In this document: positions 20,253 through 46,500 of the stretch, in pieces | Layout: each line of letters begins with the position of its first letter | How positions within the stretch are numbered: position 1 is the stretch's first letter | Assembly (NCBI RefSeq): GCF_004365705.1 | Contig: NZ_SOBN01000001.1 | Span: 4,698,001 to 4,762,000 of the forward strand | From: Streptomyces sp. 846.5 | GTDB lineage: Bacteria > Actinomycetota > Actinomycetes > Streptomycetales > Streptomycetaceae | Length of the DNA: 64,000 bases | Direction of reading: 5' to 3' | Position numbers and translations under genes: made by a program | Notes under the pieces: model-generated | Told to the model about the DNA's origin: nothing | The model's input: only the letters and a program-made list of their open reading frames with translations | Databases searched by the model: none

Positions 20253-21722
20253 TCAGCCGCTGACCAGCTTCAGCACATAGAACTGCTGCTCGGCGAAGAC
20301 CGTCTGGTAGACCGTGCCCGGGTGCAGCCCCTCGACGTACCCGGGCACGTCGGTCGGCGCGCTGGGCGACCAGCCGTACGACATGTCCAGGGCCACGTAC
20401 TGCGGCGGCGAGGTCTTGTCACCGCCGATCCAGTAGAGCTGGGTGCGCCCGGCCAGATGGGCCATCAGCGTGACATTGGCCTCGACCGTCACCCCGTCCG
20501 GGACCGTCGCCGAGGCCCGCTGCAGCATGGAGATCCGGTCGCTGGACGCATAGGTGGACGAGGACAGCACATTGGCTGCCGGGAGGTTCATGGTGATGCA
20601 GAGCGCCGCCGCGATCCCGGTCACGGCCGGGACGACGGCCCGTCCCGCGTAGGCGCGCAGCCACTCCCAGGGGCCGGCCTCGGACCGCTGGACCGCGTCC
20701 ACCAGGGCCAGGAACAGGATGGGCATCAGCACGGCGCTGTAGTGCCAGTCCATGCCCCAGTAGGCGTCGTTGGACGAGGTGAACCGCCACAGCAGGGTCG
20801 GCAGGGCGATCAGCACCAGCGGAGAGCGCAGCGCGAGGAAGCCGGTGATCGCGAGCAGATAGCCCAGGGTGTGCAGCTTCACGTCCGGCGAGATCAGGCT
20901 GTGCAGCAGCCCGAACGGCGCGGTGAGCAGCTCGTGGGTGGGGGAGTTGCCGGGCAGCTTGGACATGTAGTCGTACTGTCCGGTCGGGTTGAAGCGCGGG
21001 ATCACCAGATAGACGGTGATCAGCAGCATCGCCGCGCCGTAGACCGTGAGCAGGGCGCCGATCAGCCGCTGCCGCAGCAGCACCAGCACGATGCCGATCG
21101 CCGAGACGGTGAGCCCCATGTCCTCCTTGACCAGCACCAGCGGAAGCGCCCAGAACGCCGCCGGGTACCAGCGCTTCAGCACGATGTTGCGCAGCACCAT
21201 GGCGAGCAGCGGCACGCCGAAGGCGATCTCGTGGAAGTCGAAGTCGACGGCCCGCTGTACTCCCCAGGACAGCCCGTAGGCGATGCCGACGCACAGGCCC
21301 TTGGCCCGGGTGGTCACCTTCGCGGCGGTGTCGGAGACGATCGCGACCGAGCCGGCGAACAGCGCGGCCTGGGCGACGAGCAGGGTGACGGGGGAGGGGA
21401 AGACCCGGTAGAAGGGGGCCAGCAGCGCCAGCACCGGGCTGAAGTGGTCACCGAGGATGTTGTAGCCGACGCCTTTTATGGTGACGATCGGCGCCTGGAA
21501 GTGGGCGTAGTCCCTGACCTCTTGGACGAAGATCGCAGTGTCCCAGGACATCGAGGCGAAGTGGGTGTACCGGACTATCGAGATCGCGCAGTAGCCGGCC
21601 AGGAAGATCAGTCCCAGCGCCAAGTGCGGCAGTGCTGAGCGCGGCGGTACCAGGCGCAGGCGGCGCGGGGTCTCGGCCGGAACGCCGATGTCCGCCTCGG
21701 GGGCATCGGTGTCAGTCGTCAT
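20253..21722 (-). CDS. DUF2079 polytopic membrane protein
   Basis: A 489-residue membrane protein from ATG 21722. After a 35-residue cytoplasmic start it has about ten hydrophobic helices (for example LALGLIFLAGYCAISIVRYT and LLVAQAALFAGSVAIVS). The DUF2079 signature is SMSWDTAIFVQEVRDYA, then IVTIKGVGYNILGDHFSPVL, resembling the early region of GT-C-type transferases, where the acidic residues near helix 1 are catalytic. The C-terminal region is a small external domain. The substrate is unknown; lipid-linked sugar transfer is an inference from fold. Confidence 0.8.
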   Translation of the reverse strand: MTTDTDAPEADIGVPAETPRRLRLVPPRSALPHLALGLIFLAGYCAISIVRYTHFASMSWDTAIFVQEVRDYAHFQAPIVTIKGVGYNILGDHFSPVLALLAPFYRVFPSPVTLLVAQAALFAGSVAIVSDTAAKVTTRAKGLCVGIAYGLSWGVQRAVDFDFHEIAFGVPLLAMVLRNIVLKRWYPAAFWALPLVLVKEDMGLTVSAIGIVLVLLRQRLIGALLTVYGAAMLLITVYLVIPRFNPTGQYDYMSKLPGNSPTHELLTAPFGLLHSLISPDVKLHTLGYLLAITGFLALRSPLVLIALPTLLWRFTSSNDAYWGMDWHYSAVLMPILFLALVDAVQRSEAGPWEWLRAYAGRAVVPAVTGIAAALCITMNLPAANVLSSSTYASSDRISMLQRASATVPDGVTVEANVTLMAHLAGRTQLYWIGGDKTSPPQYVALDMSYGWSPSAPTDVPGYVEGLHPGTVYQTVFAEQQFYVLKLVSG

Positions 21723-24794: not shown

Positions 24795-26213
24795 ATGCCA
24801 TCCCTGGCCCCGGCCAATGCCGTCGACCGCTACTTCAAGGTCAGCGAGCGCGGCTCGACCTTCGCCCGGGAGATCCGTGGCGGCGCCGCGACCTTCTTCA
24901 CGATGGCGTACATCATCGTGTTGAACCCGATCATCCTGTCCTCGGCGACGGACAAGTTCGGTCACCACCTGAACGGCGGGCAGCTGGTCACCGCCACGGT
25001 GATCACCGCGGCGTTCACCACGCTGCTCATGGGTGTCATCGGCAACATCCCGCTGGCCCTGGCCGCCGGTCTGGGCACCAACAGCATCGTCGCGCTGCAG
25101 CTCGCCCCCAAGATGAGCTGGCCCGACGCTATGGGCATGGTGGTGCTGGCGGGCCTGGCGATCATGCTGCTGGTCGCCACTGGCCTGCGCGAGCGGGTCA
25201 TGAACGCCGTCCCGCTGGGTCTGCGCAAGTCCATCGCCATCGGCATCGGCCTGTTCATCGCACTGATCGGCCTGGTCGACGGCGGCTTCGTCACCCGCAT
25301 CCCGGACGCCGCGCAGACCACCGTGCCGCTGCAGCTGGGCGACAACGGCCACCTCAACGGCTGGCCGGTGCTGGTCTTCGTGGTCGCCGCGCTGCTCACC
25401 CTGGTGCTGATGGCCCGCAAGGTCCCCGGTGCCATCCTGATCAGCATCGTGGTCGCCACCGTGCTGGCCGTCGTACTCGACAAGGCGGCCCACGTCCCGG
25501 CCGCCCAGTGGGGCCTCACCGTCCCGGAGCTCCCGCACCACCTGGTCTCCACCCCGGACTTCGGCCTGGTCGGCAAGGTCAGCCTGTTCGGCGGCTTCCA
25601 CCAGGTCGGCATCCTCACCGGGATCCTGTTCGTCTTCACCGTGCTGCTGTCCTGCTTCTTCGACGCGATGGGCACCATCCTCGGCGTCAGCGACGAGGCG
25701 CACCTGCTGGACGACGACGGCAACCTGCCCGGCATGAGCAAGGTGCTGATGGTCGACGGCATCGCCACCGCCATCGGCGGCGCGACCTCCAGCTCCGCCA
25801 ACACCTGCTTCGTCGAGTCCACCGCCGGCGTCGGCGAGGGCGCCCGCACCGGTCTGGCCTCCATCGTCACCGGCCTGTTCTTCGTGGTGGCGCTCTTCCT
25901 CACCCCGTTGGCCACCATGGTCCCGACCCAGGCGGCCACCCCGGTGCTGGTCGTGGTCGGCTTCCTGATCCTCTCCAACGGCATCAGGGACATCGACTGG
26001 TCCGACTTCACCCTCGCCGTCCCGGCGTTCCTGACCATGGTGATCATGCCGTTCACCTACAGCATCACTACCGGAATTGGTATTGGGTTCATCACCTACG
26101 CGGTACTGAGCGTGGCCACCGGTCAGTGGCGGCGGGTGGCACCGCCGCTCTATGTGGTGGCGGGCGTGTTCGTCTTCTACTACCTGATGCCGGCCTTCGG
26201 CCTGGCCCAGTAG
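24795..26213 (+). CDS. NCS2 nucleobase permease with element-supplied 3' end
   Basis: A 472-residue AzgA-like NCS2 permease (purine/xanthine-uracil superfamily) from ATG 24795, preceded by AAAGGAA. Family marks are GGAATFFTMAYIIVLNP, GLGTNSIVALQLAP, CFFDAMGTILGVSDEA and GATSSSANTCFVESTAGVGE. The last about 48 codons, from ITTGIGIGF onward, differ in sequence and codon use from the orphan C-terminus at 46300-46447, which shares about 30 of 48 residues. The gene is therefore a chimera: host sequence up to about 26061, then a replacement tail brought by the integrated element, still full length. It probably remains a functional proton-coupled nucleobase importer. Confidence 0.9.
   Translation: MPSLAPANAVDRYFKVSERGSTFAREIRGGAATFFTMAYIIVLNPIILSSATDKFGHHLNGGQLVTATVITAAFTTLLMGVIGNIPLALAAGLGTNSIVALQLAPKMSWPDAMGMVVLAGLAIMLLVATGLRERVMNAVPLGLRKSIAIGIGLFIALIGLVDGGFVTRIPDAAQTTVPLQLGDNGHLNGWPVLVFVVAALLTLVLMARKVPGAILISIVVATVLAVVLDKAAHVPAAQWGLTVPELPHHLVSTPDFGLVGKVSLFGGFHQVGILTGILFVFTVLLSCFFDAMGTILGVSDEAHLLDDDGNLPGMSKVLMVDGIATAIGGATSSSANTCFVESTAGVGEGARTGLASIVTGLFFVVALFLTPLATMVPTQAATPVLVVVGFLILSNGIRDIDWSDFTLAVPAFLTMVIMPFTYSITTGIGIGFITYAVLSVATGQWRRVAPPLYVVAGVFVFYYLMPAFGLAQ
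26061..26065 (+). other. attL crossover region (core within AGCAT)
   Basis: At the left junction the host permease frame passes into element-derived sequence around AGCATCACTACCGG. The same position at the right junction reads AGCATTACCAACGG. The exact shared block is AGCAT (26061-26065 and 46295-46299), followed by a shared AC. Serine integrases need only a 2-bp identical crossover, so the true dinucleotide lies within or just next to this block. Confidence 0.65.
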
Positions 26214-26233
26214 CGACCCTGTGGCAGGAATGA

Positions 26234-26269
26234 CAGGGCCCCGTTCCCCAGGCCGGGGACGGGGCCCTG
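26234..26269 (+). terminator. Rho-independent-like terminator after the chimeric permease
   Basis: CAGGGCCCCGTTCCCC (26234-26249) pairs with GGGGACGGGGCCCTG (26255-26269) with one bulged T. A related hairpin follows the orphan permease tail at 46465-46500, so the element seems to carry its own copy of the gene end together with a terminator. Confidence 0.85.
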
Positions 26270-26283
26270 AGGGCACCAAGAGG

Positions 26284-28150: not shown

Positions 28151-29623
28151 ATGGACGAGACAGGAGCACTTCGGCATGGCCAGTACCACCACCCCCGCGT
28201 CCGGCTCCGGGCAGGACCCGGCGCCCGGCCCGAAGCGGCGCACGTTCACGGCGCAGTACAAGCTGCGGATCGTCGCTGAGTACGACGCGGCCCCGAACGG
28301 CGAGAAGGGCGCGATCCTGCGCCGCGAGCGGCTCTACCACTCGCACATCATCGAGTGGCGGGCCGCGCGCGACGCCGCTGCGGCGGCCACCCTGGTCGAC
28401 CAGCGCACCTCCGCGGCCCGGCCGAAGAAGGCCGCCGAACAGGCGGAACTTGAGCGGCTGCGCAAGAAGGTCGCCCGCCTCGAGAAGGACGTGGCGCATC
28501 GCGACGCCGCTTTGGAGCTGCTGGGAAAAACACACGCGCTCTTGGAGAGGCTCTCCGAGAGCGCGGGCTGAAGCACGCCGCCGAGCCCCTGCTCGACGAG
28601 GCGTTCACCGGCCTGGAACGGGAGTTGAACACCACGGCGGCCTGCCGGCTGACCGGACGCTCGCGAGCCACGCACTACCGGCGCCTGCACCCGCCGACGC
28701 CGCGCGAGCGCGCACCGCGCCCCTCGCCGGCTTCCGCGCTTTCCACGACCGAGCGGCAGGCCGTGCTGGACCTGCTCAACCGCCCGCAGTACGCCGACCT
28801 CGCCCCGGCCCAGGTCTGGGCCCGGGAACTGGACGAGGGCCGATACCACTGCTCGGAACGCACCATGTATCGGATCCTGGAGGCCGCCGGGCAGAGCGGG
28901 GAACGCCGCAGGCTGGCCTCCCATCCGGCCAAGACCGTCCCCCAGTTGCGGGCCACAGCCCCGTGCCAGGTACTGACCTGGGACATCACCAAGGTTCAGG
29001 GGCCGAACAAGGGCGAGTGGTACCACGCCTACGTCATCATCGACATCTACAGCCGCTACATCTGCGGCTGGACCGTGGAACGCGCCGAATCCGCCGACCG
29101 CGCCGAGGAGTTGATCCGCGAGACCATCGAGCGCAACGGCATCGTGCCCGAAACCGTCCACGCGGACCGGGGCACCGCGATGACCTCCAAGAAGGTCTCC
29201 CAACTGCTGATCGACCTCGGCGTCACCAGAAGCCACTCCCGACCCAAGGTCAGCAACGACAACCCCTTCAGCGAGTCGAACTTCAAGACCATGAAGTACA
29301 TGAGCGACTTCCCAAAATCATTCAACTCACTTGAAGAAGCCCGTAGTTGGTTCGACGGGTTCATCTCGTACTACAACCACGAGCACCGCCACTCGGGCAT
29401 CGGCCTGCACACCCCGGCGTCAGTCCACTTCGGCACCGCCGAACTGGTCCGCGAACAGCGGGCCACCACCCTTGCCGAAGCTTACGCCCGCCACCCCGAA
29501 CGCTTCGCCCGTCGACCCCAGCCACCCAAACTCCCGGAACAGGTCTGGATCAACGAACCCCAACCAGAGACAGAACCGGCACAACAGTCTTCATAGCATC
29601 AAATCGTCTCATTTGACTTGACA
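28108..29623 (+). mobile_element. IS3-family insertion sequence
   Basis: About 1.5 kb around an orfA/orfB transposase. The proposed ends are TGACAGTCTCGACAGAGACG on the left and, read inward on the opposite strand, TGTCAAGTCAAATGAGACG on the right. They align with a few mismatches and share GAGACG. I see no clear 3-bp target duplication, so ends may be off by a few bases or the copy may be rearranged. Confidence 0.7.
28176..29596 (+). CDS. IS3-family transposase OrfAB made by -1 frameshifting
   Basis: OrfA runs 28176-28571 (131 codons). It has an HTH (FTAQYKLRIVAEYDAAPNGE) and a leucine-zipper-like tail (ELERLRKKVARLEKDVAHRD). OrfB is in the -1 frame and ends at 29596. It carries the DDE integrase core: VLTWDITKVQG (first D), VHADRGTAMTSKKV (second D) and the final E in NDNPFSESNFKTMKY. 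The heptamer GGGAAAA at 28523-28529 is in the correct phase (G GGA AAA) for a -1 slip from OrfA into OrfB. The resulting fusion is the usual active IS3 transposase. Both halves look intact. Confidence 0.88.
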
Positions 29624-29655
29624 AGTTCCGCTCCGACAGGGGGCGGGTGGGCGTG

Positions 29656-29889
29656 GTGAGCGATGGGCATCCGATGATCCCAACCGTTGGTGACTGGGTC
29701 GTCGATACCCGGACTGAGCGTGCCGCTGTCCTCGTCGATGTCCGTTCTGGGCGTCTGTACCTGCGGTCGCCTGGGCTCGGTGAGGAGTGGGAGGCCATGC
29801 CGGTGCATGTGCGTGCCGCAACTGAGTCTGAGCAGTTATCCGCACGCGTCGCGGAGTTGAACCACAACAGCAGGGCGCGGGGCTGGTGA
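29656..29889 (+). CDS. Small hypothetical element protein
   Basis: A protein of about 77 residues. GTG 29656 is chosen, but GTG codons at 29647 and 29653 are in frame. The sequence IPTVGDWVVDTRTERAAVLV followed by SGRLYLRSPGLGEEWE predicts a small beta-barrel, and the family looks familiar from streptomycete mobile elements as an uncharacterised protein. The C-terminal helix (ESEQLSARVAELNHNSR) is polar. It lies just downstream of the IS insertion. Confidence 0.55.
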   Translation: MSDGHPMIPTVGDWVVDTRTERAAVLVDVRSGRLYLRSPGLGEEWEAMPVHVRAATESEQLSARVAELNHNSRARGW

Positions 29890-30079
29890 GAGTGCCTGGC
29901 TGGGCCCGCTCCGAAACAGACTCCCGCGTGCAGTGGACGACCTCGTTGCACGCGGGTCAGGGCCCCTGGTCCCGGTCCCCGTTCGGGGCCGGGGGCCTGC
30001 ATGGTGATCAACAACCGAAGAGTTAGGGAACCGGACCACCCGTCAACCTTGGCGGGAAAAGGGTGGTCCGGGGGGCGTA

Positions 30080-30102
30080 CCCCGGTAGAGATCCTACCGG
30101 GG
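30080..30102 (+). terminator. 9-bp perfect hairpin, terminator or attenuator
   Basis: CCCCGGTAG (30080-30088) and CTACCGGGG (30094-30102) with a 5-base loop, followed by CTTTCG. It lies 70 bp before the start of the gene at 30172. Confidence 0.65.
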
Positions 30103-30171
30103 CTTTCGTGCGTACGTTCGGCCTCGGACAAGAGAGTTGAGTGATTCTCAGGATTTGGGAGGGCTGGACAG

Positions 30172-30474
30172 ATGGCGTACGAAGAGGAGAACGAGGCGGC
30201 AGCGTTCATGGTCGATCTCGACCCGGACGTGTGGCTGTGGCTGCCTGGGGTGGACTACGTGGCGGGCTGGCAGGAGGCCCGTGGAGCGGCGGAGACGCTG
30301 AACCTGGCTTTGTTCGCGGTGGGCCTGGACCGTGACCAGGCGCGGGCGACGGCGGGCACGCGGGCCGATGGTCAGGGTCTGGTGCACCTGAAGGCGACCC
30401 GGTACGGCGCGTGCCGCCTGGCACAGTTGCTGGCCCTGGCGGTGGAGGGCGGCCACGCCGGTGCCACTGAGTAG
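30172..30474 (+). CDS. Small acidic hypothetical element protein
   Basis: A 100-residue protein from ATG 30172 with a clear GGGAGG site. The start is acidic (MAYEEENEAAAFMVDLDPDV), followed by WLWLPGVDYVAGWQEARGAA. Helical segments follow (AETLNLALFAVGLDRDQAR and GACRLAQLLALAVEG). No known domain. Genes of this size at this position are usual in streptomycete integrative elements and are often part of the regulatory or spread cargo, but nothing in the sequence shows the function. Confidence 0.6.
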   Translation: MAYEEENEAAAFMVDLDPDVWLWLPGVDYVAGWQEARGAAETLNLALFAVGLDRDQARATAGTRADGQGLVHLKATRYGACRLAQLLALAVEGGHAGATE

Positions 30475-30559
30475 CGGCCCTGAGCTGCACTTTGGTGGGT
30501 TTGTTACTTCGGCCGGCGGGAGCGGTGGGGTCAGCTCCGCAGGAACCATGACGGTCCCC

Positions 30560-30710
30560 GCTGCCGTCCCGTCTGCCGTCGTCCCACACCTCGGTGGAGC
30601 GGGCTTGCCCCCGGGTGTCCAGGTGGAGCGCCCCACTGGACGACCGACCTGGACACCCGGGGGCAAGGCTGCTCGGCTCTGCCTGGGGCGACGGCAGACG
30701 GGACGGCAGC
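30560..30710. repeat. Nested long inverted repeat (151 bp), possible cruciform or cis-acting transfer/replication site
   Basis: The outer arms 30560-30581 and 30689-30710 are perfect 22-bp complements. The inner arms 30604-30624 and 30647-30667 are perfect 21-bp complements around a 22-base loop. GAGC (30597-30600) and GCTC (30671-30674) add pairing between them. The outer arm contains the octamer CTGCCGTC twice (30561-30568 and 30573-30580), so four copies exist in the structure. There is no coding frame across it. It lies in the gap between the small gene at 30172 and the convergent flavin-domain gene. Confidence 0.85.
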
Positions 30711-30809
30711 TCCCTCGCTCAGCCACGACGGACCGGTGCAGGCCGACTGGTCAAGGCCATCCCGGAGCCGGAGCCCCCCGCTGGAGGCATGCGTGCACTG
30801 GCACTGGCT

Positions 30810-31295
30810 TCAGCGGAGAGCGAGCCGAACCCCAGTGATGATCTCAGGGTGGATATGCACGGCGCAGTCCATGACCCGGTCTACCCAGGGCATCAGGTGA
30901 CTCCGGTACGTCTCCAGCTCGGTAGAGTCGGTGACCAGGCGGCCGAAGCCGGTGACCACCACACTCCAGCCCAGATGGGTGCTGGGGTCGATGTCGTCGG
31001 CTTCGTAGGCAACCACGGTCCCCGGCGTCGCGGTGCCCTGAACGTGGGCGGCGAGTGCTGCTCCGAGATGGGTGCGCACGATGATGTCGCCGCCGAGCAC
31101 GATGTGATTGACCGGGCGAATCGCTGGCAGAGCGTTCTCGGTGAACACGATCCGACCCAGCGAGGTACTTGCCAACAAGCGCAAGGCCTCGGCCGCGTCG
31201 ACTTCGAGGACGCGGCGCGGCCGGGCCTGGGCGTGCTCGTCCCACAGGCTGAGTTTGATCCTCGCGCGGACGGACTCGTCGCTCATCAGGTTCAC
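30810..31295 (-). CDS. Pyridoxamine 5'-phosphate oxidase-like split-barrel protein
   Basis: A protein of about 161 residues (start at 31295, or at the ATG at 31286). The PNPOx-like split barrel is visible as AEALRLLASTSLGRIVFTEN, ALPAIRPVNHIVLGGDIIVR, then TVVAYEADDIDPSTHLGWSV and VVTGFGRLVTD. This matches the small flavin- or F420-binding proteins numerous in streptomycetes, with unknown substrates. It may be an oxidoreductase or a flavin/haem-binding protein. It is convergent with the inverted-repeat region. Confidence 0.8.
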   Translation of the reverse strand: MNLMSDESVRARIKLSLWDEHAQARPRRVLEVDAAEALRLLASTSLGRIVFTENALPAIRPVNHIVLGGDIIVRTHLGAALAAHVQGTATPGTVVAYEADDIDPSTHLGWSVVVTGFGRLVTDSTELETYRSHLMPWVDRVMDCAVHIHPEIITGVRLALR

Positions 31296-31543
31296 CGGTT
31301 GGGATAGTTGGGCATCGGTGTGCGACCCACTCCGCGTGCAGGTACGTCCTGCCCGAGCAAGCCGGTACTCAGATCAGTACAGAGGTTGCACGCGGGGTCC
31401 GACAGGGCCGTTCGGCCCTTCTTGCGTGAGTCCGCTGGCGGCTTGGGGTGGCTGGCGAAGGTCCTGACCACTCACCTGGACGCGTTGCGCGGTTGGGTGG
31501 CCTGCCGTCCGGCCGGGACCGGCCGAAGGCCGCATGCCCGGCC

Positions 31544-31581
31544 GGGGCGGCGAGGCCGCCCCGGCGGCGCGCAGCGCCGCC
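31544..31581. terminator. Two tandem GC hairpins
   Basis: GGGGCGGC-gag-GCCGCCCC (31544-31562) is followed at once by GGCGGCGC-gca-GCGCCGCC (31563-31581). Each has an 8-bp perfect stem. They lie between the flavin-domain gene and the small membrane peptide gene, both on the minus strand, and could stop transcription in either direction. Confidence 0.6.
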
Positions 31582-31634
31582 CTTGAGTAAGTAAAGAAGG
31601 TCTTCGACATCTACGCGGCCTGACCAAGAAGCAA

Positions 31635-31793
31635 TCAGTGCCAATGGATGCTCAGGTGAGTCAGCAGGTCAAGGACAACCGCGCCGACGATCGAGCTCGC
31701 CACAGCGATGAGCCACGCACCGGAAGGCGTGGACGGGTCCAACTGCTTCTTGCGTGTGGCCGTGCGCCGGGATCGCTCTGGCTGACGCGTCAT
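31635..31793 (-). CDS. 52-residue single-pass membrane peptide
   Basis: ATG 31793 to TGA 31635. The peptide has a strongly basic N-terminus (MTRQPERSRRTATRKKQ) and one hydrophobic helix (GAWLIAVASSIVGAVVLDLL), ending THLSIHWH. The positive-inside rule places the basic part in the cytoplasm. Codon third positions are G/C-biased, supporting coding. No family is known to me. It is divergent from the HTH/pentapeptide gene across about 230 bp of AT-richer DNA. Confidence 0.55.
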   Translation of the reverse strand: MTRQPERSRRTATRKKQLDPSTPSGAWLIAVASSIVGAVVLDLLTHLSIHWH

Positions 31794-32024
31794 AACTGCC
31801 TCCGAAGTTAGTGACTTGCGCTATTGATCAAGCAGGTGAGCCGCCTGATCTGCTGTATCACCAGCATGTTCTCCCTGGTGAACTGCTTGATCCGGATTGG
31901 ACGACATTGGATGAGTCACGTCAGAGCTGGACGTTGTGCGAGAAAGGCCGGACACAAGAGCTGCATAGCCCCATGCTGGTCTGACGGTTCCGGACAGTTC
32001 CGGACAGCGGGTTGAGGGGGCATC

Positions 32025-33641: not shown

Positions 33642-34691
33642 ATGAGCACTGAACAAGATCGCGATCCGCGTAGGGTGTTTGTGGTACACGGGCGGGACAT
33701 GCGTACGCGGAACAGCATGTTTGAGCTACTCCGTACGTTCGACCTGCATCCACTTGAGTGGACTGAGGTAGTACGTGCCACCGGGAACACGATGCCGAGC
33801 ATTCTTGAGATTTTGACAGCCGGGTTTCAGATACCACAGGCCGTCATTGTGCTGCTCACACCAGATGACCTGGGGATCCTGCGGCGCCAGTATCAGGATC
33901 GATCGACAGACCCAGACTATGAAAGCAAGTTGGTGGGACAGGCTCGACTAAATGTAATCTTTGAAGCAGGGATTGCCTGTGCACTTTTCCCCAAGTCTAC
34001 GATCTTCGTGGAGCTGGGGCAAGTACGTCCGTTCACCGACATCGGCGGGATTAACACTGTTCGAATCTCGCAGGGTGGAAGCTGGAAAACCGAGCTCCGC
34101 CGGCGTCTGCATACATCAGGTTGCGCCGTATCAGACAATGACGCTTGGCAAAAAGTGCCCGGGTTTACTATCTCATTCGTGGATCGCTGGACGGAGTACG
34201 ACGAGAACGGCAGGAAACACGAGGACCTACTCGACAGAAGTGAGCTTGACGAGGCGAGACGCGGTGCCGAACAACTCGGAAGCCGTACGAGTGCCTATTG
34301 CTTGATCTCTAGCGTTCAGGAGGCATACGATATGGCCTATTGGGCTATGCGCTGTCGCGCCAATAGGAACGCCGCCTCTCTCTTGACTGAATTCCTCATT
34401 AACTCGCCCTTTGACCACGGGCGCCCACGCTTCCGCGCAGCCCGCGTGCTGGAGATGTTTGATGCCAATCTTCGTGAAGAGGCATTGAACGCGGCTCAGA
34501 GCGCCGGAGGTAGGGCAGCCTTGCCATTGAACGCAGACCTCCTCAAGGCCGCACGCTCACTGGGAGTGGAGGAATATTCTCGCTCGACGGAACTAATTAA
34601 GAGCGAGGACAGCCGCCAACAGCTGCTTATTGAGATCTCAACGCTCCCCAAAATGGATGAGGTGCGACTGCTCGATGCTGGAGAGGATTGA
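33642..34691 (+). CDS. CAP12-like TIR (predicted nucleotide-binding) protein
   Basis: A 349-residue protein from ATG 33642. Residues 10-150 are a TIR-like domain of the type found in CBASS Cap12 (PF10137 group): RVFVVHGRD, PLEWTEVV, SILEILTAGFQIPQAVIVLL, TPDDLG and ARLNVIFEAGIA, then VELGQVRPFTDIGG. The glutamate of NVIFEAG (Glu108) is at the position used for NAD+ cleavage in this family. The C-terminal about 190 residues are helical and unassigned (EAYDMAYWAMRCRANRNAAS); they probably sense or relay the trigger. It converges on the TIR-caspase-SLOG operon with an 11-bp gap. No cyclase is nearby, so it is not an ordinary CBASS effector. Confidence 0.82.
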   Translation: MSTEQDRDPRRVFVVHGRDMRTRNSMFELLRTFDLHPLEWTEVVRATGNTMPSILEILTAGFQIPQAVIVLLTPDDLGILRRQYQDRSTDPDYESKLVGQARLNVIFEAGIACALFPKSTIFVELGQVRPFTDIGGINTVRISQGGSWKTELRRRLHTSGCAVSDNDAWQKVPGFTISFVDRWTEYDENGRKHEDLLDRSELDEARRGAEQLGSRTSAYCLISSVQEAYDMAYWAMRCRANRNAASLLTEFLINSPFDHGRPRFRAARVLEMFDANLREEALNAAQSAGGRAALPLNADLLKAARSLGVEEYSRSTELIKSEDSRQQLLIEISTLPKMDEVRLLDAGED

Positions 34692-34702
34692 GTAGCGACT
34701 CG

Positions 34703-35170
34703 TCATCTCACAAGCCCCTCTGGCCAAATTACTCGAACAGGAACACCGAGTTCCTCAGCGTAACGAACTACGTCGGCTGTTCCGCCGAGTCCTTTCGCTG
34801 GCTTGCCATCCCATACGGCTATCATCTGGTCGCAGATTCCCACGATCTCTTTCCCGGCAGCGAAAAAGGCTTCCTCGCTGGGCTCAGAAAATGGAAGAAC
34901 TCTAACCCTTCCCGCTGTAGCGAGAAGTCGCCGATATTCATCGAGCGGCGATCCGGACATCGTAGATTCGTAGTGGTCCGACGGAACAATAACTTCCAGG
35001 CTCCCACCGAGCTCCAGAACAGTGGCGGCGCAGAGTTGATCGGCTCCGGCCGCCAAGCTGCTGACTCCCGTAACGTCTCCTAGTGATATTAGTTCGGCTC
35101 TCAGGGCAGACTCGATAGTCGAGACTGCCTGCACGGGAATATTCTGATGTCCAGTGAATCCAACCCTCAC
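34703..35170 (-). CDS. SLOG-fold nucleotide-binding protein, third gene of the TIR-caspase operon
   Basis: A 155-residue protein. GTG 35170 is preceded by AAGGAGG and overlaps the caspase stop (GTGA), which decides the start. It is a single Rossmann-like SLOG/DprA-like domain: MRVGFTGHQNIP (loop after strand 1), SLAAGADQLCAATVLELGG (the GAD-type glycine/acidic loop), LEVIVPSDHYE, IAVWDGKPAKGLGGTADVV and VPVRVIWPEG. SLOG domains bind nucleotide-derived ligands, and in type I Thoeris a SLOG domain of ThsA senses cyclic ADP-ribose isomers. Here the stand-alone domain could bind, sequester or remodel the TIR product. The coupling implies a stoichiometric role with the protease. Confidence 0.82.
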   Translation of the reverse strand: MRVGFTGHQNIPVQAVSTIESALRAELISLGDVTGVSSLAAGADQLCAATVLELGGSLEVIVPSDHYESTMSGSPLDEYRRLLATAGRVRVLPFSEPSEEAFFAAGKEIVGICDQMIAVWDGKPAKGLGGTADVVRYAEELGVPVRVIWPEGLVR

Positions 35171-36156
35171 AACTTCCCCTCCTTGGCGAGCTTCCAAAAG
35201 TATCGGCCTAGTGCCGTTAGATAGACGTCCTCAGAAGCAAGAGCCACAAAGTATAGGTCCTTTTCATTGTCAGTCGTCAATAGTCCGGCGTTCCGTAGCG
35301 CCTTGAAGTAGTCAAAAGCGTCTTGCTCGGATGTCGGACATTGGCCCGCTGGGATCGGCCTAACACCCTCGTGCTCTGGCGTCATTGTATAATGAGCAGC
35401 AGGTGCCGAGAAGAAGTCCGGGATCTTCCGCAGCAGTGCAGGATCAATTCCCGGCTTGCAGATCCGGAGTGGGGATGATTGTGTGATGTGGGACTTGAAA
35501 ACAGGGCGTTGCTCCCACGCGTCGAACGCCCTGGATACGAAGTCGTAGAGCGAAAGAACGGAGACGTTGCCAAGAGGATCGGCGGCCGCTCCCTCTAGCC
35601 CTTCGAGCAATAGCCGGGTATAGGCTCCATGGCCGCCGGACTCGGCAGAGGTTTCGGTGGCCTGAGATGCCGCAAGAAGAGTGACGCCTTCCTTCAATAC
35701 CGCTTTCCCGGCGCCGAAAGCTTCGGAGAGGCCCATCGGCTGGAGTCCTGGAATGTTCCCGAGATCGCCACTGAAGCAAGCATCTAGGATGATGACAACT
35801 TCCTGAGCGGGTGAGTCGTTTGCAAGGGTGAGGACATCGTTCATCGATACACCGAGCGCGTTCTCCGAGAAATCCTGCGTGACCAGCTCCGCACCCCACG
35901 GCGTTTGCACTCCGTGGCCAGCGAAATAGAACAAGATCTGATTGTTGCGTGAGCTAGCGAAGAGTTGGCGCAGTTCCGTCCGCAAGACCCCACGGTCTAC
36001 AGCCGCTGTGTCGCTCGTCATGCGGCGTACGGTGTAGTTGCGCGAGCCGTCATCGTTGCGTTCGAGCAAGCCTGCCATGCCCTGAGCATCGGCGACGCAG
36101 CCGTGCAGAGGGCTATTGGCGTAATGGTCGATGCCAACTACTAGAGCTTTCTTCAT
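35167..36156 (-). CDS. Caspase-like (peptidase C14) protease of a Thoeris-like system
   Basis: A 329-residue protein from ATG 36156, 7 bp after the TIR gene stop. The N-terminal about 215 residues are a caspase/metacaspase fold. The start is KKALVVGIDHYANSPLHGCV, then ILFYFAGHGVQTPWGAE with the catalytic His81, and EVVIILDACFSGDLGN with the nucleophile Cys127. TLLAASQATETSAESGGHGA follows as the usual substrate-pocket region. The C-terminal about 110 residues (FSAPAAHYTMTPEHEGVRPI, AFDYFKALRNAGLL) are unlike common caspases and are the likely signal-binding part. In TIR/caspase Thoeris the protease is switched on by a TIR-made cyclic ADP-ribose and kills the infected cell. Confidence 0.88.
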   Translation of the reverse strand: MKKALVVGIDHYANSPLHGCVADAQGMAGLLERNDDGSRNYTVRRMTSDTAAVDRGVLRTELRQLFASSRNNQILFYFAGHGVQTPWGAELVTQDFSENALGVSMNDVLTLANDSPAQEVVIILDACFSGDLGNIPGLQPMGLSEAFGAGKAVLKEGVTLLAASQATETSAESGGHGAYTRLLLEGLEGAAADPLGNVSVLSLYDFVSRAFDAWEQRPVFKSHITQSSPLRICKPGIDPALLRKIPDFFSAPAAHYTMTPEHEGVRPIPAGQCPTSEQDAFDYFKALRNAGLLTTDNEKDLYFVALASEDVYLTALGRYFWKLAKEGKL

Positions 36157-39672: not shown

Positions 39673-40437
39673 TCACCTGCTCCGCCGTGTGGCCTCTGCC
39701 CTGATTGTGTACTTGGCTGCCGTGCTGTCGGCACTGGTGCGCAGTTCTTCGAGGATGAGCGGCTTTCCGGTGCTGGCGTCGTGGGTGACGCGGCGCAGTA
39801 GTAGGAGCGGGGCGGCGTCCGGGATGCGCAGGGCGCTGCGTTCGTCGGGTTGGGGCATGCGGGCGTGGACGGTTTCGGTCCAGGCAGGCTTGTGCCCGGC
39901 GGTGGCGAGTGCTGCGTACAGCTCGGCGACGGGGCGTGCGGGCTCGTCGGCCAGCGTGGTGCCGGCGGCGGTGGCCAGGGGGATGGTGACGCGTTGGAGG
40001 TAGCGGGTGCCGGTGGCGGGGTCTCTCAGGGTGCGGCCCACGGTGATCGTGGCCTCGTCCTCGTCCAGGCCGAGCAGGGGTGCAGTGGTGGCGTCGGTGG
40101 CGGCGCGATAGACGGTCGGGGGCTCCAGCTCGGTCCAGTCGTCGGCCGGGGTGGTGTAGCGGGCACCGGTTTTGGTCACGGTGCGTTCGACGGTGCTGGT
40201 GGCCCCGGTGGCGGTGGCGCGGACGAAGGAGCCTTTGCCCATGATCACGTCCACGAGGCCTTCGCTCCGCAGTGAGGCGATGGCCTGGCGGACGGTGGGG
40301 CGGGAGACCTTGTAGCGCTCGGCCAGGACGGCTTCCGAGGGCAGAGGGCCGCCGGGCTCGTATTCGCCGTCGGCGATGGCCTGGCGCAGGACGGTGGCGA
40401 CCTGCTTGTAGAGCGGTTCGTTCCTGATGATGTCCAC
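39673..40437 (-). CDS. GntR/HutC-type regulator of the transfer region (KorSA-like)
   Basis: A 254-residue regulator. GTG 40437 is chosen because the GntR domain starts at once: VDIIRNEPLYKQVATVLRQA, then PLPSEAVLAERYKVSRPTVR as the winged helix. The remaining part is a UTRA-type ligand domain (ATITVGRTLRDPATGTRYLQ, PLLLLRRVTHDASTGKPLIL). In AICEs such as pSAM2 a GntR protein (KorSA) represses the replication/transfer genes, and this gene is divergent from the transfer cluster. The 216-bp gap holds two inverted repeats with ACAGGT half-sites, its probable operators. Confidence 0.85.
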   Translation of the reverse strand: MDIIRNEPLYKQVATVLRQAIADGEYEPGGPLPSEAVLAERYKVSRPTVRQAIASLRSEGLVDVIMGKGSFVRATATGATSTVERTVTKTGARYTTPADDWTELEPPTVYRAATDATTAPLLGLDEDEATITVGRTLRDPATGTRYLQRVTIPLATAAGTTLADEPARPVAELYAALATAGHKPAWTETVHARMPQPDERSALRIPDAAPLLLLRRVTHDASTGKPLILEELRTSADSTAAKYTIRAEATRRSR

Positions 40438-41019: not shown

Positions 41020-41249
41020 CACAAGACTGGAGGACCCTGCGCAGCCTGCTGCGCACCCTCGGCGACCTGGGCGAGGAACTGCACCCCGGCACCGACCCCG
41101 ACAGCGATGTGCTGGTGTTCCGGCAGGTCGAGACGGCGTCCCGCGACGCCGGACGCCTGGCCGGGGACCTGGCCACCGACCACGCCAACCTGGCCGCAGA
41201 GAACAACATCCCGCATCCCACCTCGGACGGGGGACGCCATGAACGGTAA
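41016..41249 (+). CDS. Small helical protein in the transfer operon
   Basis: A 77-residue protein from GTG 41016 overlapping the previous stop by 4 bp; its own 3' end overlaps the tra gene start by 11 bp. The sequence WRTLRSLLRTLGDLGEELHP and TASRDAGRLAGDLATDHANL suggests a helical hairpin. No family is recognised. The coupling indicates a role in element transfer or its control. Confidence 0.55.
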   Translation: MTQDWRTLRSLLRTLGDLGEELHPGTDPDSDVLVFRQVETASRDAGRLAGDLATDHANLAAENNIPHPTSDGGRHER

Positions 41250-42651
41250 CTGCGGTGGGCTGGTCGGGATGGCCTGCGCGATGCAGCAGCACCCCGCAAC
41301 GGCTCCGGCGGTGACGGTGGGTCGGCATGGCCCGTCGGCCGCGCTGGTCCTGCTGGCCGCGCTGGCGGGGGTGCTGTTGGTGCTGGCGGCGGTCGCCCCG
41401 GTGCTGCGGCGTCGGGCGCCGGTGGCCTGGTGGTACCTGGCCGGGTTCCCAGTCGCCTGCCTGCGGATGCGGGTCACCTGGCGCCGGCTGACGGTGCTCA
41501 CTGATCTGGCGGTGCCGCGCCGTCCGGGGCGGCTGCTGCTGGGCGGGATGATCGTCAAGGGCGATCCGCTCAAACCGATACCCCCACGCCTGGGCATGCC
41601 CCGGATCCGGCGCGGGGGCCTGGTGGTGCGGGTGCGCCTGCACCCCGGGCAGGTCCCGGAGATGTTCGCGGGCGCGGCGGAGGCGATGGTGCACGCCTGG
41701 CGGGTCCACGCCGTACGGGTGGCCTTCGACGCGCGCGGCTTCGTGACCCTGACCGCAACCGCCTGGGACCCCCTCACCAACCCCTCGATCCCACACCAAC
41801 TCGGAACCCGACTGCTGGCCGCATTGGTCGGCCAGCGGGAGGACGGCGTGCCGTGGGTGGTGGATCTGCGCAGGGTGCCGCACTGGCTGATCGTCGGAGC
41901 GACCCGGTCCGGCAAGTCCACGCTGCTGGCCTGCCTGGTGGCGCGCTGGGCCCCGCAACGCCTAGCCCTGGTCGGCATCGACCTCAAGGGCGGCATGGAA
42001 CTGTCCCTGTTCCACCCGCGCCTGTCCGCCCTAGCCACCAGCCGCACCGAAGCTGCTGACCTGCTTAAACACCTGGTGCAGCTGACAGGTGAGCGCATGG
42101 CGCTGTGCCGCTCGGTGGGGGCCCGCTCCATCTGGGACCTGCCCGACCGGCAACGTCCCATCCCGATCATCGTGCTCGTCGACGAGGTGGCTGAACTGTT
42201 CCTGATGGCCACCCGCGCGGACAAGAACGAGGTGGGCGAGGTCTCCACCGCGCTGCTGCGCCTCGCCCAGCTCGGGGCCGCGCTCGGGGTGCACCTGGTC
42301 GTCGCCGGTCAACGCGTCGGCTCCGACCTGGGCCCCGGCGTCACCGCGCTGCGCGCACAACTCGCCGGACGCGTCTGCCATCGCGTCAACGACCCCGGGA
42401 CCGCCGAAATGGCCCTGGGCGACCTGAACCGCGACGCCTTGGCAGCAGCCCAGGAGATCACGTTCGAGGAAGCCGGGGTGGCGATCACCTTCGGCGACGA
42501 CGGCCACTGGACCCGCGCCCGCTCCACCCTGACCACCCCCGACGAAGCACAGCGCATCGCCGAGAAGTACGCCCACCTGACCCCGCCCATGGCAGCCCTG
42601 GGCGCACACGCCCCCGGGGACTTCGAGGAGCTTGGAGTGTACGAGCCGTGA
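41239..42651 (+). CDS. FtsK/SpoIIIE-type conjugative DNA translocase (TraSA/TraB-like)
   Basis: A 470-residue ATPase from ATG 41239. One hydrophobic helix lies near the N-terminus (SAALVLLAALAGVLLVLAAV), then the motor: Walker A LIVGATRSGKSTLLACLV (about residue 220), Walker B IPIIVLVDEVAEL, and HLVVAGQRVGSDLG as the sensor region. AICEs transfer double-stranded DNA with a single such hexameric motor that recognises short repeats (clt) on the element. The size and layout match TraSA. It is followed by a coupled Spd-like gene. Confidence 0.92.
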   Translation: MNGNCGGLVGMACAMQQHPATAPAVTVGRHGPSAALVLLAALAGVLLVLAAVAPVLRRRAPVAWWYLAGFPVACLRMRVTWRRLTVLTDLAVPRRPGRLLLGGMIVKGDPLKPIPPRLGMPRIRRGGLVVRVRLHPGQVPEMFAGAAEAMVHAWRVHAVRVAFDARGFVTLTATAWDPLTNPSIPHQLGTRLLAALVGQREDGVPWVVDLRRVPHWLIVGATRSGKSTLLACLVARWAPQRLALVGIDLKGGMELSLFHPRLSALATSRTEAADLLKHLVQLTGERMALCRSVGARSIWDLPDRQRPIPIIVLVDEVAELFLMATRADKNEVGEVSTALLRLAQLGAALGVHLVVAGQRVGSDLGPGVTALRAQLAGRVCHRVNDPGTAEMALGDLNRDALAAAQEITFEEAGVAITFGDDGHWTRARSTLTTPDEAQRIAEKYAHLTPPMAALGAHAPGDFEELGVYEP

Positions 42652-42968: not shown

Positions 42969-43112
42969 ACCCCAACCATCCGATCCACCCACGCGAACAG
43001 GAGCAACCCATGCACCACCACCCGACCCGTGACCTGACCAACGCCGCGCCTGGCCCCGCCCCTCTCGGGGCCCGGTCGGGCGCGGTGCCCGCCCCCTGCC
43101 TTGGGAGATCGT

Positions 43113-44564
43113 TTGATAGCTGCACCCGGCCGGACCCCTGAACCCGGCAACCCCTTCGAAGACCCCGCCGCACGCCGCGCCTACCTCGACCGAGACACCC
43201 GCCTGAAAGCCCTGGCCAGCACCGACCGGGAACTGATCGACCTGGTCAACATGCCCGGCTTCAAGCGCTGGACCGAGCAGATCCGCGCCACCGGCGGCTG
43301 CGCCCACCCGATCTACCTCGCCGGACACACCACCACCGTCGACACCGCCACCGGGCACGTACTGCACCACTACAGCACCGCCGATGAGCCGCGCGGACGC
43401 CTGACGGTCCGCTGCCGCAACCGCCGCGCCTCCCGCTGCGCCCCCTGCTCCCGCGAACACCAGGGCGACACCTTCCACCTGATCCGCGCAGGCCTGATCG
43501 GGGGCAAAGGCGTCCCGCCGTCGGTGGCCACCCACCCCCGGCTGTTCGTCACCCTGACCGCCCCCTCCTTCGGCGCCGTCCACCGCACCGGAGAGACCTG
43601 CACCACCGCGCGACGCGGGATCTGCCTGCACGGACGCCCCCGCGCCTGCCACCAGGTCCACACCGACGACGACTCCGTCAACGGGCAACCACTGTGCGGC
43701 AGTTGTTACGACTACGCCGGACATGTGCTGTGGAACGCGCACGCCCCCGCGCTGTGGAAGGCCTTCGGCGACAACCTGTACCACCACCTCGCCAAAGCCG
43801 CCGGCATCGGGCGCACGGCGGTGCGCTCGCTGGTACGGGTCTCGGCGGCCAAGGTGGCGGAGTACCAGCGACGTGGCGCGATCCACTTCCACGCCGTCCT
43901 CCGCCTGGACGGCCCCGCCGGTCCCACCACCGCGCCCCCGACCTGGGCAACCGCTGAACTGCTCCTGGACGCGGTGCGCACTGCGGCGGCGGCCGTGGCA
44001 CTACGACTGCCCCACTCGGCTGCCCTCGGGGAACGGGTGCTGCGGTTCGGCGCCCAGCTCGACGCCCACCCGCTCACCGCCGACGGCGGCGACCGGATCA
44101 CCGACGACCAGGTTGCCGCCTACGTCGCCAAGTACACCACCAAGAGCGTGGAGACAGCCGGGGCCCTGGACCGCCGCGTCACCTCCGCCGCCGACATCCG
44201 GGCCCTGATCGTCAACGACCACGTACGGGCCCTGATCGGCACCGCCTGGCGCCTCGGCGGCCTGCCCGAAATGGAACACCTTCGGCTGCGGACCTGGTCG
44301 CACATGCTCGGGTACCGGGGTCACTGCCTCACCAAGACCCGCGCCTACTCCACCACGTACGGGCAGCTCCGCAGCGTCCGGGCTGCGCATGCCCGCATCG
44401 CCTCCGGCCGGACGCTGTACGCCGACTGGGACGACGACACCGCCACCGAATCCGCCTGGCGCTACGTCACCTCCGGCCACACCTTCGCCGAAGCCCTCAT
44501 CGCCGCCGGCATCGCCGAAGACCTCGCACTGAACCGCGAAGCAGCGCGAGAGGACAGCCGGTGA
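43113..44564 (+). CDS. RepSA-like rolling-circle replication initiator
   Basis: A protein of about 483 residues. TTG 43113 is chosen for its GGGAG site; TTG 43101 is in frame but poorly placed. The N-terminal part has a Cys cluster (RCRNRRASRCAPCSREHQGD), a second CxxC (PLCGSCYDYAGH), then the HUH-like motif RRGAIHFHAVLRLDG and the likely tyrosine region DDQVAAYVAKYTTKSVE. These are features of the RepSA family (pSAM2), which starts rolling-circle replication of the excised circle. The 3' end overlaps the next small gene by 4 bp. Confidence 0.88.
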   Translation: MIAAPGRTPEPGNPFEDPAARRAYLDRDTRLKALASTDRELIDLVNMPGFKRWTEQIRATGGCAHPIYLAGHTTTVDTATGHVLHHYSTADEPRGRLTVRCRNRRASRCAPCSREHQGDTFHLIRAGLIGGKGVPPSVATHPRLFVTLTAPSFGAVHRTGETCTTARRGICLHGRPRACHQVHTDDDSVNGQPLCGSCYDYAGHVLWNAHAPALWKAFGDNLYHHLAKAAGIGRTAVRSLVRVSAAKVAEYQRRGAIHFHAVLRLDGPAGPTTAPPTWATAELLLDAVRTAAAAVALRLPHSAALGERVLRFGAQLDAHPLTADGGDRITDDQVAAYVAKYTTKSVETAGALDRRVTSAADIRALIVNDHVRALIGTAWRLGGLPEMEHLRLRTWSHMLGYRGHCLTKTRAYSTTYGQLRSVRAAHARIASGRTLYADWDDDTATESAWRYVTSGHTFAEALIAAGIAEDLALNREAAREDSR

Positions 44565-44719: not shown

Positions 44720-46260
44720 TCGTCGTTGGACTCCGCGTCGTGATCGCGCCAGATCGGAGTGATCTTGCTCGGGTCGAAGATCTTGCTGCCTGCTCCGGCG
44801 GGATGGATCTCGACCGCAATCAGGCTCTCGGCGACAGCGCCCTGACGTTGTTCAAGCAAGAATTTCTCGTCAGCCCATCGCTCCCGAAGATCTGTCACAG
44901 CTGACATTCGACTCTCGCGGGCACTGTCGTACTTACGACGCTCAGCCAAGAGCGCTCGCTCGTCGGACTCCAGCTCCTCAAGCAGGGGGAAGTATCGGCC
45001 ACCCGTGATCCGGTCGGCTCGATACTGCTGCGTCAGTTCGTTGATCTTTGTCCTGACGGAGCGAAGTGCCTCTTCCTTGCCCCATGGTGGAAGCTCCTCG
45101 ATCGACTTCAAGGAGGCTCGCTCATGGTCCTGGATGACCAGTTCAGTGATGTACTCGTCCACGCTGCTGCCCAGGCGTGAGCACCCCCCGCACCCTCCCT
45201 CTTCCTTGCTGCGACACCAATAGACGTGGACCTTGACGCCTCCGGGGCCGGGCCGCGTTCCTCCGCGCATACGGGCTCCGCAGGCCCCGCAACGAACGAA
45301 CGGCGACAGCAAGTACTTGGAGACGTGCCCCCGGCCGTCGCGGGGGTTCACGCGTGGGCCGTAGCTCGTCACGCGGGAGTCAACGGCGCTGAACTGATCC
45401 TCGGTGAGGATCGCCTCCCAAGCGCCTCGCACTGGCAGGCCGTCAGAGTTGAGCAGGATCTCACCCTTGTAGGTGCGCACGCCGTAGAGCCTTGGGTTGG
45501 TGAGGATCTGGGACAGCGTCTGAGTGGTCCACTGCTTTCCGGTGACTGACAGGATCCCGGCCGCGTTCCAGGCCTTGACGATGCTCGCTACTCGCACGCC
45601 GCTGACAACTTGATCAGCTGCCTTGCGGAGCAGGTCGGCCTCGACCTCGTTGAGCGTCGTCTTGTCCTCGTTCCAGCCGAACGGGCGATAGGCGCCACCG
45701 CTGTTCCGCCCCTTGAGGGCTGCTTTGCGTTTGCCGTTCATCATCCGCCGTGAGGTGTTGCGCGACTCAAGGTTGCGCTGGTTGATCTCGTTCCGCGCCA
45801 TGGCTATGCCGGAATCGGTAGTGAGATCGAGGAAGCCTGTGATCGCCGCTACGAAGACTCCGTACCGCTCGACAAGGTCAATGAGGTCTTCGAGGTCGCG
45901 AGGGTCACGCATCCCTCGGTCGATGTTGACCAGTGCAAGCGCGTTGTGGGTTCCTCGCCGCAGGTCGGTCATCACGGCATCCCACACGGGGCGAACCACG
46001 CGGTAGGCGTGTGTGCCGTCGGGAAGCCGTACGCGCTTCTTCTTGAACGCGGAGGTGTCGTTCTCCACTGCCTCGCGGCCGACGCGGCCACCGAACTCCG
46101 TGGCGTATTCGCGGAGGTCGTCCATCTGGTTGGTGACCTGCTCGCCCGCGCCTTCGGCGTCCTCGGACTCTCGGGCGTAGAGGACCCAGGACAGTTGTTC
46201 GGGGTCGATGTTCAGCTCAGTGCGTCCGCCGGCGCGGCGCGGTGTCTCCCGTAATCCCAT
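44695..46260 (-). CDS. int: Large serine recombinase (element integrase)
   Basis: A 521-residue serine integrase. The resolvase-type catalytic domain has the nucleophile in WVLYARESEDAEG (Ser32), with the arginine-bearing LVNIDRGMRDPRDLEDLIDL and DSGIAMARNEINQRN. The recombinase domain follows (GGAYRPFGWNEDKTTLNEVE), then the zinc ribbon (VRCGACGARMRGG ... YWCRSKEEGGCGGCSR) and a coiled coil (LRSVRTKINELTQQYRAD). Its start is about 35 bp inside the right junction, the usual place next to attP. It inserts the element into the NCS2 permease gene. Confidence 0.93.
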   Translation of the reverse strand: MGLRETPRRAGGRTELNIDPEQLSWVLYARESEDAEGAGEQVTNQMDDLREYATEFGGRVGREAVENDTSAFKKKRVRLPDGTHAYRVVRPVWDAVMTDLRRGTHNALALVNIDRGMRDPRDLEDLIDLVERYGVFVAAITGFLDLTTDSGIAMARNEINQRNLESRNTSRRMMNGKRKAALKGRNSGGAYRPFGWNEDKTTLNEVEADLLRKAADQVVSGVRVASIVKAWNAAGILSVTGKQWTTQTLSQILTNPRLYGVRTYKGEILLNSDGLPVRGAWEAILTEDQFSAVDSRVTSYGPRVNPRDGRGHVSKYLLSPFVRCGACGARMRGGTRPGPGGVKVHVYWCRSKEEGGCGGCSRLGSSVDEYITELVIQDHERASLKSIEELPPWGKEEALRSVRTKINELTQQYRADRITGGRYFPLLEELESDERALLAERRKYDSARESRMSAVTDLRERWADEKFLLEQRQGAVAESLIAVEIHPAGAGSKIFDPSKITPIWRDHDAESNDDQGPISKP

Positions 46261-46299: not shown

Positions 46300-46447
46300 T
46301 ACCAACGGGATCGGCATCGGCTTCCTGGTCTTCTGCATCCTCAAGCTCGCCACCGGCCGCTTCCGCGAGGTCCCCGTCGCCCTCTACGTCGTCGCCGCGG
46401 TGTTCGCCTTCTACTACCTGATGCCGGCCCTCGGCCTGGGGCAGTAG
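46300..46447 (+). pseudogene. Orphaned original 3' end of the NCS2 permease gene
   Basis: The frame NGIGIGFLVFCILKLATGRF ... LYVVAAVFAFYYLMPALGLG followed by Q and stop is the last helix and C-terminus of an NCS2 permease, without the rest of the gene. It shares about 30 of 48 residues with the tail now attached to the permease at 24795. By the logic of site-specific integration this is the host's own tail, displaced by 20 kb; it has G/C-biased host-like codons. Confidence 0.88.
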
Positions 46448-46464
46448 CTCCCCGCCTGCACGTA

Positions 46465-46500
46465 CACAGCCCCGTTCCCAGGTCTGGGAACGGGGCTGTG
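46465..46500 (+). terminator. Terminator of the displaced permease tail
   Basis: CACAGCCCCGTTCCCA and TGGGAACGGGGCTGTG form a perfect 16-bp stem with a 4-base loop. It is related to the hairpin at 26234-26269. Confidence 0.9.

Follow-up and report, generated by a model that had tools for sequence, protein, structure and literature searches.

A nested hairpin at positions 30560-30710 of the window (the whole 64,000-nucleotide stretch of Streptomyces sp. 846.5 DNA that we analyzed) works as a folded single strand in the sense of the rep gene. It is probably part of a putative single-strand (second-strand, minus-strand) origin region of actinomycete integrative and conjugative elements (AICEs), common conjugative elements of actinobacteria that replicate by the rolling circle. 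This reading, reached by comparing sequences, draws on the features by which a single-strand origin (sso) is recognized: carriage by rolling-circle elements (49 of the 74 listed hairpins lie near a listed RepSA gene), a fold on one strand, a fixed orientation, and independence of the type of Rep.

Geometry and Covariation of the Hairpin

The sequence-only reading of this DNA had described a nested inverted repeat at 30560-30710 containing four octamers. Its coordinates and arms were reproduced here, and the dimensions given for it (22-bp outer arms, 21-bp inner arms, and a 22-base loop) were all borne out. The claim that the structure lies beyond chance also stands, as the + strand folded as single-stranded DNA reaches -81.6 kcal/mol (z = -13.3), which none of 200 shuffled sequences equaled; the - strand folds more poorly (-75.6 kcal/mol, z = -9.7). 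A scan of the 64-kb window for close inverted repeats ranks the hairpin first, with a score of 116 against 67 for the runner-up; the scan is not exhaustive and undercounts, since the type-B hairpins of plasmids L137-L139 (see below) escaped it.

The overall shape, given here on the + strand, is a long outer stem leading to a junction that bears two short side hairpins; beyond it, a long inner stem is topped by the apical loop. The outer stem, which is supported by inverted-repeat match, fold, and covariation, pairs a 27-nt 5' arm (30560-30586) with a 3' arm at 30684-30710; the match over these 27 nt is 96%, and the outermost 22 bp (30560-30581/30689-30710) are free of mismatches. At the junction, the 5' shoulder mini-hairpin (CAC/GTG, 30587-30596) folds with 87.5% of its cells paired across 75 copies, and the 3' shoulder mini-hairpin (30675-30683) folds with its two inner pairs paired in 88% of cells. 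A middle helix (GAGCGG at 30597-30602 with its partner at 30669-30674) is supported by fold and covariation. Above it, the inner stem (30604-30624 with 30647-30667) is perfect over 21 bp; its 5' arm is part of helix 3, with 97.5% of cells paired, and its 3' arm is supported by fold and covariation. The stem is capped by the nearly invariant 24-nt apical motif TGGAGCGCCCCACTGGACGACCGA (30624-30647), which has a mini-helix of its own and whose ends form the base pair at the top of the stem, so that the loop bases proper are the 22 at 30625-30646. Inside the loop, a G-U/C-G exchange is seen at alignment columns 81-88.

Across the 75 aligned copies, the stem sequence drifts and the apical motif stays near constant. 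Compensatory double changes occur in 49 of the 65 base pairs, and compensatory cells number 461, as against 115 in shuffled alignments (none of 500 reached 461) and 74 to 97 when the pairing partners were slid. The first 22 copies alone give double changes in 33 of 65 pairs, with 117 compensatory cells versus 26. When the outer and inner stems are read on the + strand, G·T occupies 274 cells and A·C 37 (29 versus 9 columns). Because G·T is tolerated and A·C is not, the + strand, which is the sense of rep, is the folding strand; the structure was itself derived on the + strand and favors that strand somewhat, a bias that the size of the difference makes an unlikely cause.

The octamer CTGCCGTC is found at 30561 and 30573 (+) and at 30690 and 30702 (-), two per outer arm. 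Both 5' octamers are kept in 2 of the 75 aligned copies, and 36 of the 75 have none on either strand. The conserved features are thus the fold and the 24-nt apical motif, not the octamers. A conserved box, ATCCCGGAGCCGGAGC..CCCCGC.GGAGGCAT, lies about 50 nt 3' of the hairpin (30759-30790, +, by eye); it was seen by eye in 16 of 18 actinobacterial downstream sequences, is partial in L291 and absent from L059, and is absent, again by eye, from the two phage downstream sequences compared. In several copies this box (CCCGGAGCCGGAGC..CCCCGCCGGAGGC in relatives) has GGAGCGCCCC in common with the apical loop.

The Host Element and the Spread of the Family

The window element is AICE-like, with RepSA, FtsK/TraB, a serine recombinase, and an end repeat all present. 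It encodes a GntR-type regulator (39703-40422, -; 38% identical to the annotated GntR regulator of plasmid L138), an FtsK/SpoIIIE-type TraB translocase (41107-42651, +), a RepSA rolling-circle initiator (43101-44564, +; PF20199, 514.6 bits), and a serine recombinase that is the probable integrase (45160-46254, -). The 3' end of a xanthine/uracil permease gene occurs at both element ends (26143-26273 and 46378-46504, 75.6%). Among the cargo between them are a CAP12/Pycsar-type TIR protein and a protein with a caspase domain (33642-34691 and 35167-36156), possibly an anti-phage defense, as well as a pentapeptide-repeat protein. An IS-type gene pair (HTH_Tnp_1-like plus rve integrase core, 28176-29596) lies just left of the conserved hairpin region.

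Two more copies of the hairpin, 87% and 88% identical, reside in sister elements of the same genome; with one sister, the homology to the window element covers 798 bp around the hairpin as well as the tra/rep region, and with the other it is less extensive. Sister elements with the same tra/rep genes thus also have the arms, which agrees with the earlier proposal of a cis element belonging to the mobile element. BLAST matches were obtained in 11 of 14 same-genus genomes, two of these partial only. A covariance model (R1) built from 22 copies finds the hairpin in 46 of 101 family genomes; these include 9 of the 14 from the same genus, and 10 of the 17 genera sampled are represented. A loop-pattern scan of named genomes returned at least 119 stretches; all 119 listed titles are actinobacterial, and the genera listed are Streptomyces, Actinacidiphila, Streptacidiphilus, Micromonospora, Plantactinospora, Virgisporangium, Phytohabitans, Planomonospora, Planotetraspora, Nonomuraea, Actinomadura, and Geodermatophilus. 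Of the 119 stretches, the first 80 were scored with R1, which confirms 75 and misses L172, L177, L185, L187, and L191 at E 1e-5. Some elements have two same-strand R1 hairpins separated by 2 to 4 kb, as in L103 (6281-6430 and 10001-10152, 3.7 kb apart) and L114 (7778-7929 and 10001-10152, 2.2 kb apart); the two R1 copies of L014 are 11.6 kb apart.

Position Relative to rep and Replacement by Other Hairpins

Among the matches listed for the 101 genomes, the hairpin shares the strand of rep and lies 5' of it by 263 to 12549 bp in all 49 R1-RepSA pairs within 20 kb; counted against the listed RepSA matches only, 25 of 74 R1 hairpins have no RepSA within 20 kb. The typing set behind these counts comprised 74 listed R1 rows (opposite-strand twins and six weak or partial rows excluded), 60 of 81 type-B rows (the 21 excluded score 75 bits or less), and 150 listed RepSA rows out of at least that many. 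The hairpin is usually followed, in this order, by a GntR regulator, a small gene, traB, repSA, xis, and int, and in 28 of 40 contexts it lies 5' of a traB-like gene of the same strand; L135 runs against this order, with its traB-like match 5' of the hairpin. In pMR2, an 11-kb AICE-type plasmid of Micromonospora rosaria, the R1 copy (L011 8166-8316, 147.7 bits) is found 3' of int; on the circle, this position is upstream of tra/rep. The pMR2 record has no annotation there. No FtsK/TraB match was found on the contig or within ~70 kb for five R1+RepSA elements from four genomes, which had been chosen since no traB was seen nearby and one of which sits on a contig of only 20.6 kb. Beside the rep-less copies L098, L132, and L108, none of the 8 proteins tested is a replication protein.

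The RepSA plasmids L137, L138, and L139, which have no R1 hairpin, carry another nested hairpin (type B) upstream of tra/rep and in the same sense (L137:3361-3520; L138:9981-10140; L139:10081-10240 and 20461-20620). L139 (NZ_CP071873, an S. formicae plasmid) consists of tandem AICE copies of ~10.4 kb with traB, rep, and int, the third copy being incomplete. Type B, whole or partial, is found by BLAST in 37 of the 101 family genomes, and 32 of 33 type-B-RepSA pairs agree with the R1 pairs in order and strand. Among 150 listed RepSA genes, 46 are accompanied by R1, 30 by type B, none by both, and 74 by neither; the probability of zero overlap is 3.6e-6 assuming independence, in a count made without 27 rows that are weak or short, among which is a 34-nt type-B fragment next to R1 (G066:C43). 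Inspection of 20 of the 74 RepSA loci with neither type (L312-L331) revealed a third hairpin frame upstream of RepSA, type C, in L316 (13436-13581) and L331 (15328-15482 of its reverse complement), a B-like hairpin in L320, and strong simple inverted repeats in L314, L319, and L330. These results show that the hairpin types substitute for each other beside RepSA.

The hairpin is also found with a different initiator. L291, a Streptomyces longwoodensis plasmid, has R1 together with a Rep_1-like initiator (30.3 bits, with the Pfam cut-off at 33.2) and no RepSA; we term it pIJ101-like because of its gene order and annotation, and its R1 hairpin sits between rep and GntR/traB. Around the R1 loop of L291, the type-C landmarks GGTTCT and CCAAGG can be made out by eye, which would suit an exchange of loops and frames. 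A second very large hairpin lies directly 3' of rep in this plasmid (L291:2182-2312).

A pIJ101-Like Segment Downstream of the Hairpin

The minus strand of pIJ101 at ~7264-7392 resembles a segment located 3' of many hairpins, with identities of up to 83% over 118 bp. A search of 232 loci with this pIJ101 segment and its L049 relative gave 131 matches no more than 1.5 kb from an R1 or B apex, of which 129 are downstream on the same strand, 2 upstream, and none on the opposite strand; for R1 alone, 113 of 115 are downstream on the same strand, with none opposite, and 20 further matches have no R1 or B apex nearby. Some of these loci come from one genome under two names (e.g., L055/L186), so the counts are not all independent. 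The median apex-to-segment offset is 211 nt for R1 and 127 nt for B, and the segment is present within 600 nt of 107 of the 165 R1 apexes with room for it (58 lack it) and of 15 of 21 such B apexes. A smaller scan found the segment starting 0.1 to 0.35 kb 3' of 46 of 62 hairpins and not within 1.2 kb of 15, which include the window element and three close sisters; one of these misses, L134, whose R1 lies on the + strand, was scanned on the wrong strand. The match in L291 is short and lies at a distance of 746 nt.

In the window element, the place of the pIJ101-like segment is taken by 31492-31622 (+), which is shared with sister L007 (8580-8708, 91.6%) and gives no BLAST match to pIJ101 or to its L049 relative; the nearest sisters also have such a segment. 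A stretch missing in L007 (30791-31491) separates the hairpin from this downstream segment and holds a pyridoxamine 5'-phosphate oxidase-like gene (30810-31295, -); it has shifted the window segment away from its hairpin.

The segment also occurs without a hairpin. Seven of ten RepSA loci with a pIJ101-like segment (L317, L322, L315, L324, L328, L326, and L330) have no strong hairpin 5' of it (z of -2.5 to 0.2, simple shuffles), which speaks against the simple idea that every RepSA element has such a hairpin. In pIJ101 itself, R1 scores at chance level (best 20.5 bits, E 0.27), and the loop pattern with up to 3 mismatches gives 4 matches where 2.9 are expected. Since pIJ101 and some RepSA elements have the segment without the hairpin, the latter looks like an exchangeable upstream module.

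In the literature, sti is called the single-stranded origin of pIJ101 (PMC4170104) and the site of second-strand synthesis, downstream of rep (PMC11985553); one remark describes it as orientation-dependent (PMC9761944), and this 0.2-kb site is placed within 1.2 kb downstream of the replicon (PMC9761944, PMC11985553). The pIJ101 segment lies outside the replicon end, as marked by a published rep primer at 8477, and ~1.1 kb off; the partner of this primer was not found in the pIJ101 record, in which rep is unannotated. The PstI (8075) and SacII (8489) sites of pIJ101 are 0.41 kb apart, a rough fit to the 0.5 kb given for sta (PMC9761944). Because the map position relative to the replicon agrees with the published placement of sti, we read pIJ101 7264-7392 as sti-like, a designation that would apply by map position only. 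The clt of pIJ101 presumably lies at the other end of korB.

The Apical Loop in Low-GC Tailed Phages

Three IMG/VR stretches with 32-37% GC carry a loop that fits the pattern on wholly different, AT-rich stems (L261:1095-1245; L262:6894-6981; L263:56-146). The L261 loop is letter-identical to that of L291, and L262 and L263 have a common hairpin with one loop base different. The phage folds beat their shuffles by a wide margin (z = -8.0 for L261 and -7.1 for L262), and R1 detects L261, not L262 or L263, at E 1e-5. Terminase and portal proteins are encoded on L261 and L262. Two Paenibacillus phages have a terminase with 34% identity to the L261 protein, and the loop is absent from Paenibacillus phage API480, whose terminase resembles that of L261. 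An SSB-like gene lies ~0.3 kb from the L262 hairpin.

In a phage collection, neither the window region nor the L261 hairpin had a match, and L262 had a single weak one, outside the loop. When a plasmid collection was searched with the phage hairpins, loop-length matches came only from Nonomuraea, S. longwoodensis (two plasmids), and Nocardiopsis, the other matches being weak and elsewhere in the query. Relaxed loop patterns in viral contigs yielded mainly chance matches; the flanking positions are paired at 13 or 14 of 14 in L259-L263 and at 8 or fewer in all other relaxed-pattern contigs. Since these tailed phages have the loop and show no sign of rolling-circle replication, they provide the strongest hint of a wider role or of an RNA. 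We tentatively suggest, as a possibility that we take seriously and would not yet bet on, that some replication or transcription factor conserved widely among bacteria recognizes the apical loop in single-stranded form. The loop would be a portable motif that was grafted onto unrelated stems in actinobacterial AICEs, in a pIJ101-like plasmid, and in low-GC tailed phages, and it would define a new cross-phylum class of single-strand initiation element.

Discussion

We propose that, when RepSA nicks and displaces the rep-sense strand, the hairpin would fold on this exposed strand and display its nearly invariant apical loop. A host factor, which may be RNA polymerase or a primase/primosome, would be loaded at the loop, and second-strand synthesis would be primed near or inside the downstream sti-like segment. 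The hairpin would then be an exchangeable upstream module of the priming site, not the whole site.

This proposal can be set beside several known systems. Like sti of pIJ101, whose map position we infer, the hairpin occupies the rep side of korA/tra and has the same strand sense; unlike sti, with coordinates placed in the same inferred way, it is an extra upstream module, pIJ101 being without an R1 hairpin. The single-strand origins of Gram-positive rolling-circle plasmids fall into exchangeable classes (ssoA, ssoT, ssoU, and ssoW). From these and from sso1 of ICEBs1, the present hairpin differs in its much longer stems, its nearly invariant 24-nt loop, and its actinobacterial hosts. Like sso1 of ICEBs1, it is noncoding and strand-specific, folds back on itself, and belongs to an integrating element; the ICEBs1 sso was recognized by its resemblance to those of plasmids and is orientation-specific (PMC4595007). 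STAXI, presented as a candidate RNA or structured single-stranded DNA near DNA-handling genes (PMC2864571), likewise has a conserved fold and is proposed there to act possibly as single-stranded DNA. Unlike the nested hairpin with a four-way junction described here, STAXI is a repeated pseudoknot, and its authors weigh RNA on account of its UUCG loops. No account of AICE second-strand synthesis was found in the AICE literature searched, including the available text of PMC3218068, and no description of this fold was found in the literature searched, which covered few subscription papers.

The sequence-only reading had listed a replication origin and a structured RNA among its options. The first survives in the form of an origin module, our best reading, and the second is now its main rival. 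A structured noncoding RNA in the rep sense, e.g., a regulator of replication or transfer or a binder of a host factor, in which fold and loop act as RNA, strikes us as rather unlikely. Covariation and the preference for G·T are equally expected of such an RNA, and the recurrence of the loop in tailed phages is easier to explain by RNA than by a rolling-circle single-strand origin. Against it, no Rfam 15 family reaches gathering level (window 29500-31800; L261; L291), and the flanks just 5' of the hairpin diverge fast in a 23-copy alignment examined by eye, so that no conserved promoter is apparent. Moreover, the fixed strand relative to rep, the replacement of one hairpin by another, and the adjoining pIJ101-like segment are unexplained by RNA alone. 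With E values of up to 1 allowed, the hairpin matched four Rfam microRNA models; these were rejected because their scores fell well short of gathering level.

The hairpin could instead be the double-strand origin (dso) nicked by RepSA, which we regard as improbable. RepSA elements dominate the matches, and dsos are often close to rep and can form hairpins. Here, however, the same loop accompanies a Rep_1-like initiator, RepSA elements use at least two alternative hairpins, and the hairpin-rep distance varies across the range given above. The window stem contains CTTG, which we take to be part of pC194-type nick sites, but this CTTG is lost in many other copies.

We consider it very improbable that the hairpin is the transfer site clt and the octamers its TraB-bound TRS repeats, a link that the sequence-only reading had brought into play. 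AICE transfer requires clt (PMC3218068), and many hairpins lie 5' of a same-strand traB-like gene. Yet CTGCCGTC is rejected as a TRS for lack of conservation; complementarity rather than stem sequence is preserved, unlike what a double-stranded recognition site would show; and the five R1+RepSA elements described above have no FtsK/TraB match on the contig or within ~70 kb. The suggested link of the octamers to TRS and clt is not supported. A MITE or other small transposable repeat, also raised by that reading, is hardly credible and fails the check which that reading itself had set: the genome has three copies and some elements have two, but the copies travel with the AICE backbone (the 798 bp of flanking homology in one sister; order and strand fixed in 49 of 49 pairs with rep), and their stems covary.

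This family makes the synthesis of the AICE second strand open to testing: its site and strand are defined, a covariance model describes it, and its modules are exchangeable. The host factor may be approached through the conserved loop, whose reuse in low-GC phages is puzzling and may have a bearing beyond AICEs.
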